A DNA stretch of 64,000 nucleotides from Camillea tinctor. Taxonomy: Eukaryota; Ascomycota; Sordariomycetes; Xylariales; Xylariaceae. Shown here one piece after another: positions 49,473-62,977 of the stretch (positions within the stretch are counted from its first letter, which is position 1; the number at the start of each line of letters is the position of its first letter). A program made the translations under genes and the position numbers. The DNA lies in contig MU394119.1 in NCBI GenBank assembly GCA_022578605.1, positions 1 through 64,000 of the forward strand, given 5' to 3'. The notes below the pieces were generated by a model. The model did no database searches. It was not told where the DNA came from and saw only the letters and a program-made list of their open reading frames with translations.

Positions 49473-50798
49473 TCATACAAAGCTAGCAGCGCGACTCCAG
49501 TCCTCCTCGCCCACCCCCCTGAACTCGACGCCCTCGCCAAAGTAGCCCGCGTCCTGCCAGGCCTTCATTGTGGGACCGTCAAACGGCCCCTGCTTGTCGG
49601 CGCCGTCCCGACCGTCCGTCCAGCGATACTCCCACATCTTGGTGGGGGCATCGTCCTCCGGCCCGGGCTTCTGCTCGGGCTCGACCCAGGGCTCGTCCGA
49701 TTCGCGCGTGTACTCGCGTATGAGGAGTTCCCGCTCCCGGTCGTACACATCGGGCCGGTCCCGCCCGAGCAGCTTGTCGGCTGCGTCGGTAATGGCGTCG
49801 ATGGCTTCCTTGATGCGCACTTGCTCGGGGTCTTCGGGCGCTTTTTCCGCGTCGACCTCCATCGTCTCCTGCTTCTGCTGCTGCTTCTTCTGCTTCCACT
49901 TGGGCACTTTCTTGGCTTTCGTTTGGCCGCGCCCTAGGCGGGCGAGGGCCTCGAGCGCGGTCTCGCCACGGTCTAAGCGCAGGATTAGGGCTTTGAGTAG
50001 GTCTGAGGTCAGCACGCTGTCTTCTTCTTTGCGCTTCTGTCGCTGCTCGGCCTCGCGCTTCTCGTGCGCCTCGGCGGCTTTCTTCATGTCCTTCTTACTG
50101 ACGCCTTCGAGCCACCGGTCGTGTATAGCATCCGGGTCTACGGCCTTGCGCACGAAGTTTCCGGCCTCGTCGAAGCGGCCTTCCTCGTGCTCAGCCTTGA
50201 GATTGAACGCTTCGACCTTGGGGGCGTGTTTCTTGAGCCCGCCAGCGCCGACTTCCTCGTCGACGTCTTCTTCTTGTATGGCCAACTGGATGGTTTCTTC
50301 GTCCTCGTCTCCTGACGACTCGTCACCTAAATGGATATGCCCTCCGGATTTTGACCTCGAGTCCTGGCCTTCGATGTTGGCGGAATCGAGAAACCTGACT
50401 TCCTTGCTCTTCTTTCCGGTCGTATCGTCAACCGTGTCGTCTTTCGCGTCTCCGTCATCGTCATCGGCAGCGAACATGTCGTCCATGTCCTCGTCTTCTT
50501 TCTTCCCCTTCGACTTGGATGCGTGTAGGGTGCCTAGTTCCTCGCGATCGGAGTCTGAGTCGTAGCCGTCGATGTTCACGGCGCCGCGTTTCGTGGCAGC
50601 GCTGCCGCGTATGACCTCGGCATCGGCCTGGAGGTAGGCATCCTCTCCCTCGTCGTCGTCATCAACGTCGGGTGCTAGTGCAGAGGGATTCCGTACATCA
50701 AACTTGACTTTCTTGCTATCGGGTTCGGAGTTGTGATGTTGTCGCGCATAGTTCTCGCCGGCGCGCTTCGGCCGTGCTGCACTGAATCTGGAGGACAT
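49473..50798 (-). CDS. lin1: U5 snRNP-associated GYF-domain protein (Lin1/CD2BP2 orthologue)
   Basis: Component of the U5 small nuclear ribonucleoprotein; it binds proline-rich partners through its GYF domain. A single exon of 441 residues. The N-terminus carries the conserved basic-then-acidic layout (SSRFSAARPKRAGEN, DSKKVKFD, then DVDDDDEGED). The middle matches Lin1/CD2BP2 (AFNLKAEHEEGRFDEAGNFVRK and DAIHDRWLEGVSKKD, about 225-265). The GYF domain is at the end (about 386-435), with the MWEYRW start and the GPFDGPTMKAWQDAGYF core in place of the classical GPF...GYF. Glutamine-rich coiled segment near 320-340. Divergent from Ufd1, with about 790 bases between the start codons. Confidence 0.95.
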   Translation of the reverse strand: MSSRFSAARPKRAGENYARQHHNSEPDSKKVKFDVRNPSALAPDVDDDDEGEDAYLQADAEVIRGSAATKRGAVNIDGYDSDSDREELGTLHASKSKGKKEDEDMDDMFAADDDDGDAKDDTVDDTTGKKSKEVRFLDSANIEGQDSRSKSGGHIHLGDESSGDEDEETIQLAIQEEDVDEEVGAGGLKKHAPKVEAFNLKAEHEEGRFDEAGNFVRKAVDPDAIHDRWLEGVSKKDMKKAAEAHEKREAEQRQKRKEEDSVLTSDLLKALILRLDRGETALEALARLGRGQTKAKKVPKWKQKKQQQKQETMEVDAEKAPEDPEQVRIKEAIDAITDAADKLLGRDRPDVYDRERELLIREYTRESDEPWVEPEQKPGPEDDAPTKMWEYRWTDGRDGADKQGPFDGPTMKAWQDAGYFGEGVEFRGVGEEDWSRAASFV

Positions 50799-51587
50799 GT
50801 CGGGCTTCTATAGCTTGGCTGTGATCATAAAAAATACTAGCAAATAAGGAAAGAAATAAAGATGGGACACGAGTGAGTAAAAGAGATGATGAAGAGAAGG
50901 AAGAAGAAAGAAGTAGGAAGTTGTCAGTGACAGTTTTAGATTTTAGATTTACGCTAGACACCAATTGGAAAGGAAGGAATGTGATATGACGTTGAATTCT
51001 GCCCTGGTCGGTACCTTAGATAGCTGCAGCTTCATAGTGGGGCAGGCTGTAGTACTTCCTTGTAGCGTATGTAGTACCTGCCTGTAGTGTATTGTAGGAG
51101 CTAGGTAGGAACCCGGGGTGGTCCATGCCAAATTTAGTACCTAGGTAAGCTGATCGCGAACTTAGATCCCCTAAAACGGTGTGACTTGAGTAGATATGGG
51201 CGGAACATTGTGTGGCCGACTGGCGTGTCGTCATCCCACACCACACTGGCAGTTGCCTTGAGGGACCATCAAAGAAGGTTCCCCAGAGCTTTGGAAGCTC
51301 TAGGTTTAGAAACTCTAAGATTACCTAAGTCTAACCAACCTTAATCCCCTCCATTCCCTCATTTCCTCCATTCTTCTATTCTCCTACTTACTATTTACTT
51401 ATTACTTACTATTGACCTAACTCATTATACCTCAACGTCGAAAAGACCTAACAACTTTGTGGGTTCATTCCATATTCTCTCCGAAACCGTAATAGGTCTT
51501 ATTCTATTTTTGGGAATTTAGGCTTTTATTCGAATCAGAGACATCTCTCTCTACCTAGCTTAAAGGTTTGAGACAAATCCAAAGAAG
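50799..51587. other. Divergent promoter region of Lin1 and Ufd1
   Basis: About 790 bases. Next to Lin1 it is purine-rich (50820-50940); near Ufd1 it is CT-rich with TTACTATTTACTTATTACTTACTATTG words (51390-51415). CCTAGGTA-type palindrome at 51138. No coding gene seen. Confidence 0.6.
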
Positions 51588-52971
51588 ATGGTTCGTGCAT
51601 AAAAAACCACAGACCCTCCCAACCCGCAGCCTGTAGCCCGCAGCCCACAGCCCACAGCCCACAGACCCAGTCCCTAGTTCTTAATAACACTTATTTCATT
51701 TTTAGTATCAACCCGCCTTCGACGCTTTCGAACCCGACGATCCGGCCGCAATGTATAACATGGCTCGCTCCGGCATGATGCGTGGTGGCGCTCAGCGTCG
51801 TTTCGATGAGTACTTCCGCTGCTACCCCATGATCATGGCTCCCGGACCCGAGAGACCGGAGCTCAACTACGGTTCCAAGATATTCCTGCCCCCCTCCGCC
51901 CTTCAGAAGATCTCGCAGCTACGCGTGCAGTGGCCTCTTACTATGGAGCTGGTGAACGGGGAGAGGGAGAGACAGACACATGCTGGTGTGCTCGAGTTCG
52001 TCGCTGAGGAGGGCCGCGCATACATACCACACTGGGTGAGTCCTCTTGTGGAAAGCATGGATAGAAAAAAAGAAAAAGAGAAAAAAAAAGAAAACACTCG
52101 GGTGGTTGGTTCCACTAACATATCATAGATGATGCAAACGCTGCAGCTAGACGTCGGTGACATGATCCAGATCAAGTCGACGTCTCTTGAGCTTGCCAAG
52201 ATGGTCAAGCTGCAACCCCAGTCCACCAACTTTCTCGATATTAGCGACCCCAAAGCCGTTCTTGAGAAGGCATTTAGAAACTTCGCCACGCTGACGAAAG
52301 GTGATGTGTTCAACTTTGAATACAACGACGAGGTCTACGAGATTGCTGTGCTGGAGGTCAAGCCTGAGACAGAGAAGATGGGTGTTTGTATGATCGAGAC
52401 CGATGTGTCCGTAGACTTTGCACCCCCCGTAGGCTACGTTGAGCCGTCCAGGGGTAGCGGCACGAGCACGCCAAGAAGTACTCGTGGAGGAGGTCTACCA
52501 GCAGGTGGACTTCTCCACAGCCACGGCACTATGGCCCAGGCCATCAACTACGATGCCATCGCACCTAACGCTACAACTGCCGCAGCAGGTTCCCGGGCTG
52601 CGGCATCACATTTCCTTAGTGAAGGTCACAAGCTCAACTCCAAGAAAGGCTCTAAGGCACCTACACCCAAGCCTTCAACTCCTGTTGCCAGTACTTCTAC
52701 CAACACCCCCCCCATTCCACGAAGAAGAGTAAATGGTCCCATGCCACTCCGTCTACCGCCCAACAAGCTATTCTTTGGGTATGAAGTCAAGCCGGTGAAG
52801 ACTGATGCCGATAAGGAGGCAGAGAAAGAGAATGCCAACAAGCCGCACTTTGCCGGACAAGGCCAGACCTTGCGGGGCGTAGTCAAGCGGAAGGGGGAGG
52901 GAGATGACAAGGGAAAATCCCCAGAGAAGAAGCCGAACGAAGGACGTAGACTTGATGGGCGGAAAGCATGA
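51588..52971 (+). CDS. ufd1: Ubiquitin fusion degradation protein 1 (Ufd1)
   Basis: Partner of Npl4 and of the Cdc48/p97 segregase; extracts ubiquitinated proteins for the proteasome, including ER-associated degradation. Model: ATG at 51588-51590 as the only coding part of exon 1, then 51706-52035 and 52129-52971, giving 391 residues. The part starting at 51706 reads YQPAFDAFEPDDPAAMYN, matching the conserved N-terminus of filamentous fungal Ufd1, so translation must begin upstream of the ATG at 51751. The donor of that first intron (GTTCGT) is weak, which lowers confidence in the start. The double-psi barrel domain runs from about 30 to 210 (RCYPM, KIFLPPSAL, THAGVLEFVAEEGRAYIPHW, LQPQSTNFLDI, LTKGDVFNF, FAPPVGYVEP). 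The C-terminal tail is Ser/Thr/Pro- then Lys-rich, with a VNGPMPLRLPPNKLFFGY segment conserved in the family. Confidence 0.93.
51623..51670 (+). repeat. CCCRCAG-type tandem repeat in the first Ufd1 intron
   Basis: Units AACCCGCAG, AGCCCGCAG and then three AGCCCACAG-like copies, ending in ACCCAG. Each unit contains a potential AG acceptor, so several cryptic splice acceptors sit just upstream of the proposed true acceptor at 51705. Confidence 0.8.
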
Positions 52972-54764: not shown

Positions 54765-55605
54765 TTAGACTTCATCGTCATGACCGCCGAAGCTTGAACT
54801 GGGTCCCTTGGTGTCACCGTTCTCCTGATCATCATCGGAGAATCTGCCATAAGCATTGTTAGTTAGTACCGCGACCGTTTACGAAACAAGAAGGAGACGG
54901 TGATGAAGGATGACAAGAGGGGAAGGAAGGAATGGTAGATAAGAAAGGTATTTCCTGCGAGATGTGTATACGTAGTAGAGAAAGGGTAGCTTAGGGTAGG
55001 TAGGACTCACTTCTCCTTCTTGATCTTCTTGGTAGGACTGCTATCATCCTCGACTTCGTCCTCGGAAACCACGGGCTGCTTGGCCTTGCGCTTGTTACCG
55101 GGGGTTTTCTTGGTGCCCTTGCCAGCGGTTTTCTTGGGGGTAGGGGTGGATGGGGCAGTGCCGTTGCCGGCGTCGGAGGAACCGTTGCTAACACTCTCCT
55201 TGGCACGGAGCTTGCCCAAGTGCTGTCTGTAGAAAAGGGGGGAAAGGTTAGCCTTGAGTGGAACAAAATAGTAGATAGAGTATAGTAAGAAAGAAAAAAA
55301 AAGAAAAAGAACATATGGCAATGCGGTCAAAAAAGCTAATAGTTAGTGAGCTGCTGCGATAGACAAGCAGTGACCATGGTTCCGTGGGCATGGTTGAGTA
55401 AAGGCATGGAGGTATGCTGGATTGCTGGGAGATGGAAGTATTACGTAGCGGCACCAATGCTAAAGTTATATCCCTGGCCTCGCAATTGTTTGATGATATT
55501 GTCCCACTCAGCTTGGGTGGGTGCAGCATGTTCCATGATTGCAAGCAGCAGATCAAGGTGGGTTTCGCTTGTCCAATTGGTACGGCCGGACTTGGAGGGA
55601 GCCAT
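54765..55605 (-). CDS. Small Myb/SANT-like protein, form D (first exon nearest the shared tail)
   Basis: Exons 55605-55445, 55226-55011 and 54843-54765 join in frame (phase 2 at both junctions) to 151 residues. The N-terminal module resembles a Myb/SANT fold: W at residue 11 (TNWTSETHLDLLLAIMEH), a second W in AEWDNIIKQL, then GYNFSIGAA, completed across the splice by TQHLGKLR. The remainder is a Ser/Thr/Pro- and Lys-rich tail (KKTAGKGTKKTPGNKRKAK, SPTKKIKKEK), an acidic patch, and an end of GGHDDEV. A sequence-specific DNA-binding role is inferred from the fold pattern and basic tail. The donor (ACGTAATA) is weaker than those of the two upstream first exons. The last two exons are shared with forms B and C. 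No named orthologue is recognised; such small proteins are common in Pezizomycotina and uncharacterised. Confidence 0.8.
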
Positions 55606-56168
55606 AATTCCAGTAGATTAAGGAAATAGGTAATATGAAAGGAAATGAAGAAAGTGTAAAGTGATCTTGCTGCACGTAGGAATGTTTGTAGTTGAGAGGA
55701 GGTGGATCACTCGATGATTAAATAGAGGTGTTTGGTAGTGTTGTCCGAGCAGGAAGGAAAGAAGATGGGGGAGGTGGTGAAGGTTGGGTAAGGAAGGAAG
55801 AGAGAAAGGTATTTGGAATATGGATGCGTGCACTTCTGTGAAGAGGATACAAGTAAATAAGGAATGGCAAGGTAGTTGTCGTCGTGGGAGATGGTTACCC
55901 AGGTACCATCGACGAGATATGTTGTATATTGGGACATAGAATTCGCCACGCCACCGTAGGTTGCCCGAGTAATAAAGGTATCACCCAGGGGAATTTCAAG
56001 GTAAACGGGACATGAAGGGTAGGTACATATACTTTAGAGCAGGGGCAGAGATTGAGGGATATACAATGCGAAAGTCGTCGCGAAATAATAGAAGAGATGC
56101 ATGATCGAGAGGCAACATTGGGTGTAGGGGGATGCAGGAACGATTCATAGAATATGCCCATGACCTAC

Positions 56169-56317
56169 CTGATGGCGTTCCAGTTCACATTGTAGCCCTT
56201 GGCGTTCATTCTGGAGACAATAGACTCTCGATGCTCCTTAGTGATCTGGGGATCTAGAACGAAGAAGATGGATTGATAGAGTTGGCTGTCCATCGCGTCG
56301 TCCCACTTGGTCGTCAT
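56169..56317 (-). CDS. Alternative first coding exon, form C of the Myb/SANT-like locus
   Basis: ATG at 56317, 149 bases, ending ATCAG before GTAGGT. It encodes about 50 residues: TKWDDAMDSQLYQSIFFVL, then SIVSRMNAKGYNVNWNAIR. The phase (2) and final residues match the shared exon at 55226, giving AIR-QHLGKLR and a 147-residue product (49 codons plus 216 and 79 bases). Its own CA/CT-rich leader precedes the ATG. It cannot be an internal exon after form B, because an acceptor just before it (ACCAACCAG) would put it out of frame. Unspliced, the donor reads AGG TAG, an immediate stop. Confidence 0.75.
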
Positions 56318-56592
56318 CGTGTCTGGTTGGTTGATGGTGATGATAGGTGTGGATAGGTGAAAGGAAGTAGTAATGGGTAGAGAAGTTGTGATGTGGATTG
56401 TACGTGAAGCCTTAGAAGCTCAGTGTAGAAGAAGAGTAGAATTTACTTAGACGTATCCGTCTGTACTTTTGCGCTGGCAGAGAGAAAAAGGGATTTATGA
56501 AGTCACGGTCTATGTCACCTCGACAACACAACATAGCATGGACAAAGCTCGTACACTGATAAATAATCATTGTCAAGGAAACCACAACTTAC

Positions 56593-56750
56593 CTGATGGC
56601 TTCCCAAGACATGCCATAACCACGTTGGTTCATGGCTGTCACTACAGCAGCTTGCTTTTCTTGGGGGAGTGGCTTCGTGATGTCGAAGAGAGATAGAAGC
56701 AAAGCTTCGTGGGACTCGGTAGTCCAGGTGCCTTTGTTGGATCCCGACAT
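56593..56750 (-). CDS. Alternative first coding exon, form B of the Myb/SANT-like locus
   Basis: ATG at 56750, 158 bases, ending ATCAG before the consensus donor GTAAGT. It encodes GTWTTESHEALLLSLFDI, then VVTAMNQRGYGMSWEAIR. Joined to the shared exons 55226-55011 and 54843-54765 it makes 150 residues in frame; the intron would be 1,366 bases, very long for this genome. A CT-rich leader and no upstream AG in phase support it as a first exon. The second tryptophan of the SANT pattern is missing here and in form C. Unspliced, the donor gives AGG TAA, an immediate stop. Confidence 0.75.
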
Positions 56751-57426
56751 GGTGGAAGTGACGATACTAGTAGATGCTAAACACGGTTGGTATCCTTGGG
56801 AGGAGACTAGTAAGAACTCGATGATTTAAGAAAATGCGGAGGTAGATATGTATTGGAAAGGATGTGAGCTGTATGTCAATAATACGGAATGATGTGATAT
56901 GGCATGCCAGGGTATGATGGTATTGGACAATTTACTTAGTGGCGTTCGTGAGAGAAAACCGTGGGGGGATCTGATAACTTCACTGTGAAGAGTGAACGCA
57001 AGCTGCTTTGGCTTAGTCTCGCCGCCTATCCCTGTGAATTTTTTTCTGGCCGTAACGTAACTAGAACCTCGACCACAACTCCTGAAATCACCCAATTAAC
57101 GCGATGCCGAAACTGTTGTACATATGCTTTCCTAGCGAACTCCATTGACTTCTCCCATGAAACCGCTCGTAATAAACCTCTGCGTCTCGAGCTATAGCTT
57201 AAAGAAAGATGACACCGACGACACGGCACAGCCGGATACCAGCTCTAAATATATATTGCAGGTCAAGCACGTCGCTACTGCAAATGTGGACCGGTGGTTG
57301 AATCTAAAAAGAGCACTATTATTTTGAATACCCATCCAACCTGCCCCTCCCTGCCTTCGCGAAATATCATAGCGATCTGAACTGCTTCGTTGTAAAATTT
57401 GAGATACTCGATAAACTCGATATTCT
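56751..57426. other. Spacer between the Myb-like paralogue A and the first-exon array
   Basis: About 680 bases. On the minus strand, codes nothing recognisable; I searched for a fourth W..GY..AIR module here and saw none. Presumably the 3' flank of gene A and the promoter of form B. Confidence 0.55.
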
Positions 57427-58629
57427 CTATGCTTCACCGTAATAACTACAAAATGGTGAGCATTCAGTGACTAAGGCACGCGGGGAGCAAGCTTACTCTG
57501 AATTCCCGTAATGATCGTCAGGACCTGGCAGGCCGTGGGCTGCCAGGGCCAAAACAGCTTCGTCATCATTCTGGTCTTGATCAACCCCGTCAAGGCGCTG
57601 GCGTTTCGAAGGCTGCTCGTCTAATCCTGTATCGTCTTGTACTAAGCTCAGTGAATCCGTCTCCTGTATAGGAACAGAGACCTGCATAGACACGTTCACA
57701 GGCACACCTGCCGCATTCGCCTGGCCCGAGGGGTCCGTGATGGACACATCGGTAGACTGAGATGCTGTCTGCTCGGAGGAAACAGGAGCGGGCGGCAGCT
57801 TTCTGGGCCGGCCACGTCCTGGGCCAGGCCGGCGGGTGATGGGATTATCTGTCGGGTCAGACTTGTTGCGTTGGCTATCTAAAATAGACCCGTTCGAAGT
57901 TTCAGCCTTGTGCTGAGCGCGACGAAGGCCTTGGAAGTGTTGGCTATTTCACGTTAGTTTTGTTTACTTCGAGGTTCCATCGAGAGCACGCGACTCAATG
58001 GCTACGTTTGATGAAATTGAATAAAACAAAACACGGCCAGCTACCGAGACTCCACTCAGCAATAGAGTACATTAAAGTGGTTGTCGTTGGTCCATGCTCA
58101 TCGCCATCAGAAATCTCACAGAGTTGAGGTAGGATCCGAAGACTTATCATTGGCAGATGAGGCAGATGATCTCACTACATCCGGTGGAGAGGATTGGGTG
58201 GGATGGGATAGGGCGGGATGGGATAGGATAGGATAGGATAGGATAGGGCACGATAGTAGTAGGGTCTCACACATATATACAGCAACAAGACAAGACTAGG
58301 TAGGGAAGATAGGTAGATAGGCTGGTACTTATGATGTGCTCATCTCACCCGTCATGGAAGGGTGGGATGGAGGTTAAAAGCTTCACGCATAACGAGAATA
58401 TCAACAACCACAAGAAAAAGGCTCATTAAAAGAACAATATGTATTTCCCCGGCGAGGCAAGAAGATGAACAACTCACCGACATCCTTCATTAGTGAAGCC
58501 GTACCCGAGGGACCGCATATGGTTTCCAATAGTAGTCCATTCCGAACCGCTTATTACACCGATATTCTTGACTGAGAGGATGGTGAAGAACAGGTCTTTG
58601 TCAGCCCGGTCATTCCAGTTCTTGTTCAT
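57427..58629 (-). CDS. Small Myb/SANT-like AT-hook protein, complete paralogue A
   Basis: Exon 1, 58629-58478, encodes NKNWNDRADKDLFFTILSV, a second tryptophan in SEWTTIGNHM, and LGYGFTNEGCR. Exon 2 starts at 57943 and continues the module as QHFQGLRRAQHK, in the same phase 2 as forms B-D. The frame then carries an AT-hook (RRPGPGRGRPRKLP), a Ser/Thr/Val-rich region and an NLS-like QPSKRQRLD. It stops at 57493 (200 residues) or, if the GTAAGC at 57496 is used with an acceptor TTTGTAG at 57446, ends in a short exon 57445-57427 with ..DYYGEA (205 residues). Both endings are in frame and I cannot choose. Intron 1 is 534 bases, unusually long, and holds a GGATA repeat. Likely a DNA-binding regulator. 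Confidence 0.8.
58196..58249 (+). repeat. GGGATGGGATA / GGATA tandem repeat inside intron 1 of paralogue A
   Basis: Imperfect GGGTGGGATGGGATAGGGCGGGATG-like units grade into five clean GGATA copies. On the transcribed (minus) strand this is a TATCC repeat in the intron. Confidence 0.9.
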
Positions 58630-62152: not shown

Positions 62153-62977
62153 ATGTCTGCCAACAACGACAATGCTATGACTAGGTTTCTGTTTGCCATA
62201 CTCCGGCAGAAGAACCTCAAGGATGTAAGTTGAAGAATCTAAAATATATTGCTATAGTCTATAGAGCCAGGCCCGACTAACTCGCAAATCTAGATCGACT
62301 GGAATAAAGTCGCTCACGACCCGATCCTAGCTCAGGAGATCACCAATGGACATGCTGCCCGAATGAGATATTCGAGATTCCGGTCTGCTATGCTCGGCCT
62401 CGAGCCCACCCGACGCAATCGCACCGGTCCTCCCAAATCGAGAGTCACTAAATCTAAGAAAGATCCCAAAGGGAAGAAGGATGAACACATGAAGTCCGAG
62501 CCGGCCGCCAGGTCTCCGACCCCACTACAGCCGGTGGACCCGCCTGCCCCGAAGATCAAGCAGGAAAGCTCCCAGTATGCTTTCAACAGTCGACTTACAC
62601 CAGGACTGACGCCGGGCCCACTTTCGAAATCTCCAACTTTACCTAATACACCCCTTTTCCAACCACGTCTCCTTACTCCGTGCAGCGATACGGATGTTTT
62701 CGCACCAACTCCGGCCGTGGCTTCTAGCCCGTCCGATTTGTTCCAATCTGCGAATCCATTTGAGTTCCACACAGCATGTGCGGATCATACCAACCCTACG
62801 TGGCAACATGACACTACCTACTCAGCGTTTGATGCCGCATTTCCCTTTGATAATTATGGGCCTTCTTCATGCGATCACTCGCACCTACATGGGCTAGTTA
62901 TGCCTAACCACTCTATCGAGGATGAAGGGGCTCACTACGTTGAGGTGAAACATGAGGAATGGGATGGGTATCACTGA
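62153..62977 (+). CDS. Myb-like DNA-binding protein
   Basis: Two exons, 62153-62224 and 62294-62977 (GTAAGT donor, CTAG acceptor), give 251 residues. The N-terminal 55 residues are a compact helical module (RFLFAILRQKNLKD across the splice into IDWNKVAHDPILAQ, then GHAARMRYSRFRSAMLGL), a pattern widely conserved in ascomycete Myb-like regulators. A basic block follows (RRNRTGPPKSRVTKSKKDPKGKK, nuclear localisation and DNA contact). Then comes a Pro/Ser/Thr-rich stretch containing a SUMO-type IKQE site, and a His/Asp/Glu-rich C-terminus that could activate transcription. The intron position inside the module and the leader support this start. Function of the family is not established; likely a transcription factor. 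It is a different Myb-like type from the tandem locus at 54.7-58.6 kb. Confidence 0.88.

Follow-up and report, generated by a model that had tools for sequence, protein, structure and literature searches.

Three exons on the minus strand of Camillea tinctor contig MU394119.1, here called B, C and D, encode diverged copies of one small, putatively helical module, and on balance B and C are probably alternative first exons of the gene that begins with D, one tail being shared by all three. They lie within a window of 64,000 nucleotides, the whole stretch of DNA analysed, which belongs to a 44.7-Mb assembly. This reading, advanced in the original prediction, is favoured by the conservation of B and C, by their phase-2 donors, by a strong in-frame acceptor at 55226 and by the lack of an RQH exon of their own among the acceptors listed, but gene models from Biscogniauxia, which join B to C, speak against it. 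The exons concerned are as follows.

56593..56750, minus strand: candidate first exon B; 158 nt, 52 codons plus 2 nt, donor CAG/GTAAGT
56169..56317, minus strand: candidate first exon C; 149 nt, 49 codons plus 2 nt, donor CAG/GTAGGT
55445..55605, minus strand: first exon D; 161 nt, 53 codons plus 2 nt, weak donor TAC/GTAATA
55011..55226, minus strand: exon 2, putatively shared; remainder of helix 3 (QHLGKLR) and Lys-rich tail
54765..54843, minus strand: exon 3, putatively shared; acidic C-terminus and stop

In the proposed arrangement a single locus has three alternative first exons in tandem, each of which would start from its own leader, perhaps under a separate promoter, and would encode a divergent copy of a module of about 50 residues that breaks off inside its third helix. 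The phase-2 donors of all three would join the single acceptor at 55226, B and C transcripts being expected to use it as D does, and the exon behind it would supply the remainder of helix 3 together with a Lys-rich, acidic-ended tail. Transcripts starting upstream would skip C and D because these, as first exons, have no good acceptor before their ATG. Such a locus may have evolved by duplication of a unit of module exon and tail exon, with one tail kept for B, C and D, and the modules may bind DNA or chromatin.

Exon layout, reading frames and leaders

A frame check bore out the predicted coordinates of B, C and D exactly, each exon starting with ATG and ending in phase 2. Each is in frame with 55226, and once the intron between exons 2 and 3 (55010-54844) is removed, the frame carrying on through 54843-54765 to the stop, the products come to the predicted 150, 147 and 151 aa, respectively. 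Several diverged first exons, B, C and D, are found to have a start codon each, and the phase and frame of all three donors are compatible with one common acceptor. The three ATGs are likely to be the translation starts; C's Met, with the KWDDA motif, is also present in frame in the Biscogniauxia marginata model. The Camillea tinctor protein F4810DRAFT_689550 (P0001) is identical to the D-plus-tail product over all 151 aa, so the join of D to 55226 is the annotated one. D is the sole member of the trio found in a public Camillea protein or gene model, and searches of the protein collection, restricted in length range and to shared words, brought up neither B nor C with the tail from Camillea.

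The introns leading to 55226 measure 1366 nt from B, 942 nt from C and 218 nt from D. Introns of 1366 and 942 nt are long for a fungus, and these lengths agree with those first given, but long introns are not confined to B and C, that of the neighbouring gene A being 534 nt. The in-frame stop just past the donors, which follows AIR, arises because a phase-2 GTAAGT or GTAGGT reads as such.

Each ATG is preceded by a pyrimidine-rich leader, originally described as CA/CT-rich; pyrimidines make up 65-66% of the 120 nt before the ATG, close to the 95th percentile for segments of that length in this DNA. The leaders of B and D have one 11-base word in common, which might, as a weak hint in the sequence, be a remnant of a duplicated promoter.

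56816..56826, minus strand: AATCATCGAGT, starting 76 nt before the B ATG
55709..55719, minus strand: the same word, beginning 114 nt upstream of the D ATG

Upstream of the three exons lies a paralogous gene, A, which has a tail of its own.

58478..58629, minus strand: module A, exon 1 of the neighbouring paralogous gene; phase-2 donor TCG/GTGAGT
57493..57943, minus strand: second exon of gene A, with an RQHFQGLRR... tail; 3' end provisional, a further small intron being possible

Its 534-nt intron is of the same phase 2 and in the same place, before RQH, as in the B/C/D family, and has an ACTAAC branch-point match. Since gene A combines its own tail with the same phase-2 intron, the ancestral unit probably had module and tail on separate exons, the tail exon opening with QH and a phase-2 intron between the two interrupting the last helix; of this plan B and C match the first part only, the module exon.

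Splice-site strength and predicted fold

Acceptors were scored on branch point, pyrimidine tract and the -3 base, with weights set by hand from the fungal consensus; donors were scored in like manner, also with hand-set weights, and ranked as percentiles among GTs. By this hand-set score 55226 is the highest of the 4247 AGs on the strand, with a GCTAAC branch-point match 21 nt upstream. The B donor (CAGGTAAGT) scores highest among GTs and the C donor (CAGGTAGGT) stands at the 99.9th percentile, the annotated D donor at 55445 (TACGTAATA) being much weaker than either, at the 62nd. The pairing of a weak D donor with a very strong acceptor could give donors farther upstream a chance to be used.

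The possible acceptors listed for B and C are downstream YAGs that lie 40 nt or more from the exon and keep the frame open for 5 or more residues after the join. Among these, 55226 alone gives the family joint RQH, and a CTRAY branch point accompanies only 55226, its neighbour 55222 and the exon 3 acceptors 54843 and 54824. No second exon of B's or C's own with the RQH joint was found among the acceptors listed, and a genome search at E <= 0.01, which was not exhaustive, turned up a single copy of the tail. Another acceptor for B, at 56473, reaches the 99.5th percentile and would close a 119-nt intron, giving the joint AIS-AKVQTDTSK-stop, without RQH, and a protein of about 62 aa. The acceptors of gene A (95.4th percentile) and exon 3 (98.8th) both fall below it, so the score alone leaves 56473 a candidate. 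Lying close to B (56593-56473, minus strand) and ending the protein about 10 residues on, this site could be a decoy or an off-switch for B.

The Myb/SANT label originally attached to the modules is a weak one: no Pfam cut-off is reached, and the modules are Myb/SANT-like at most. The best Myb-type scores are 16.2 bits for PF00249 (cut-off 24.4) in P0003, the B. marginata model, and 14.1 for PF13837 (cut-off 27) in P0005, from B. mediterranea, with a near miss for HTH_12 in P0009 (18.3 against 21.4). Fold searches gave no clear match. The predicted structure of D with its tail (P0001, mean pLDDT 55.5) has helices at residues 13-26, 31-44 and 47-67; the exon junction, at residue 54, lies inside the third of these, in agreement with the prediction that the join splits a helix, at the low confidence of this model. 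In the P0003 model (mean pLDDT 75.1), helices fall at 11-25, 30-42 and 49-55 in module B and at 74-91, 94-106 and 113-116 in module C, whose last helix is thus 4 residues, or one turn. With helix 3 cut to 113-116, C without the shared exon would miss most of that helix.

Near the cluster, at 62154-62977 on the plus strand, stands a two-exon gene, its exon join placed by eye, with a Myb_DNA-bind_8 domain (PF22980, E 1.2e-11), for which profile comparison with modules A-D found no relation. Other neighbours are a UFD1 gene (UFD1_N1, UFD1_N2) at 51706-52971 on the plus strand and a gene for a GYF-domain protein at 49473-50807 on the minus strand.

Conservation in relatives and rival gene structures

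A B module with a C module behind it is found in each of three gene models from Biscogniauxia, namely P0003 of B. marginata, with 117 aa, and P0004 of Biscogniauxia sp. FL1348 and P0005 of B. mediterranea, with 93 aa apiece. Identity to Camillea B is 64% in B. marginata and 74% in both FL1348 and B. mediterranea; for C the figures are 61%, 72% and 77%, respectively, the latter two models lacking C's first residues. Camillea D is 68% identical to D of FL1348. Within Camillea the six module pairs are 20-31% identical, and unlike modules of different species reach at most 40%. Judged by these alignments, B, C and D are old paralogues, with B and C conserved about as well as the annotated D, and the gap between 61-77% across genera and 20-31% between modules argues that B and C are real coding exons. 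A tree of 17 module rows, in which long branches were flagged, gave ultrafast bootstrap values of 92 for C, 87 for D and 94 for B with C, none of the three starred, and did not resolve a B group.

The comparison with relatives that the original prediction had called for cuts both ways, B and C being conserved at 61-77% with their donor kept, but joined to each other in all three Biscogniauxia models. In those models C ends exactly at the Camillea donor residue (NWNAIR or NWNGIR, then the protein end). By eye, the residue after the module is Tyr in all ten D-like rows (P0006-P0008, P0010, P0011, P0013-P0016 and P0018), and likewise in P0009 and P0012. Stop or Tyr is a possible reading of a phase-2 GTA or GTG donor, so the donor position seems to be kept throughout. 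P0012 is C-like (44% to C), has its own Met and continues for 120 residues without likeness to the family; P0009, which resembles both B and C (42% and 41%), runs on for 6. The two extensions do not resemble each other, which fits an unspliced reading into the intron and tells against a conserved short protein.

The Biscogniauxia models could be taken at face value, in which case there would be two genes, one joining B to C as two truncated modules that end at C's AIR-stop and the other consisting of D with its tail, an explanation that is unlikely here but has real points in its favour. Models of this kind exist in B. marginata, FL1348 and B. mediterranea, and in FL1348 the B-C model P0004 (588424) and the D-plus-tail model P0002 (588425) are separate, have consecutive numbers, come from a contig of equal length and are apparently adjacent, the order B, C, D-tail probably being conserved. 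The relatives' models disagree, however, on how B is joined to C: P0003 passes through C's leader, whereas in P0004 and P0005 the join falls within C, so that its beginning, with KWDDA, is lost. Among the acceptors listed, no YAG within the Camillea C leader is in C's frame, and the in-frame site inside C, 56285, is at the 77th percentile and has no CTRAY branch point. C would, moreover, end within its third helix. The fused models are taken as compromises of gene prediction, though they could be right.

That B, and perhaps C, should be separate tiny genes is quite improbable. B would then be spliced through 56473 to give its protein of about 62 aa, or B and C would be read unspliced as proteins of 53 and 50 aa ending at the AIR-stop. 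In favour of the spliced form are the strength of 56473, which outranks the gene A and exon 3 acceptors, and its short 119-nt intron, but the site does not restore RQH and is unused in the models of the three relatives. The AIR-stop is a by-product of the donor, and P0009 and P0012, with Tyr in its place, read on by their 6 and 120 residues. It is very improbable that B and C are disused relics of duplicated genes with lost tails: no tails of their own were found and neither exon was seen in the Camillea protein set, but their open frames and donor positions are kept, at 61-77% identity across genera against 68% for D.

Alternative first exons on one tail may also have a counterpart outside the Xylariales. 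In Diaporthe ilicicola P0017 (diail_9762, 194 aa), a tail-less D-like module precedes another module, which has QHLQKLKRKE and is followed by a Lys-rich tail. The likeness of P0017 to D is 39% over 49 residues (E 1e-12 by direct comparison, 0.39 in the collection search), and its second part aligns weakly with D plus tail (23.5 bits). This gene model looks like, and possibly is, another tail-sharing locus of the same kind, in which a different module adjoins the tail. On its layout is based a broader and rather doubtful proposal, that of an old fungal combinatorial locus in which a DNA-binding-like helical domain is split in its last helix, its beginning being supplied by one of several diverged first exons in an array, while its end and a histone-H1-like Lys-rich tail stay constant. 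Such a locus would predate the split between Xylariales and Diaporthales and would have been missed by gene prediction, its orphan first exons turning up in odd fused models.

Significance and comparison with known systems

If the alternative-first-exon reading is true, an ascomycete swaps half of a putative recognition helix by a protocadherin-like choice of first exon while the tail stays constant, diversifying a regulator at very little cost in DNA, and some public gene models of the family are wrong in a recognisable way, as fused modules ending at AIR. The clustered protocadherins and UGT1A are animal gene clusters in which variable first exons are combined with shared constant exons. As read here, the Camillea locus resembles them in that diverged first exons, each with a start codon, stand in tandem, in its phase-compatible donors and in a single constant set of downstream exons. 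It differs in having three small exons, in being fungal, in a junction that falls within a helix predicted for the variable domain, and in that the joins of B and C are predicted.

A literature search brought up no fungus in which modular first exons in tandem share one tail. In Sclerotinia sclerotiorum, 1.1% of splicing events are alternative first exons (PMC7749757), and in Verticillium dahliae these belong to the three types termed 'sporadic' (PMC4035056). These surveys concern the same class of event in ascomycetes and, in their accessible portions, count events, with no mention of tandem duplicated modules on one tail. Xlr2 of Trichoderma virens has one part of its DNA-binding domain on exon 1 and the other on a microexon further downstream (PMC11121469). 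According to the accessible part of that account, the Xlr2 microexon is either included or not, whereas in Camillea it is the first half of the domain that would be swapped.
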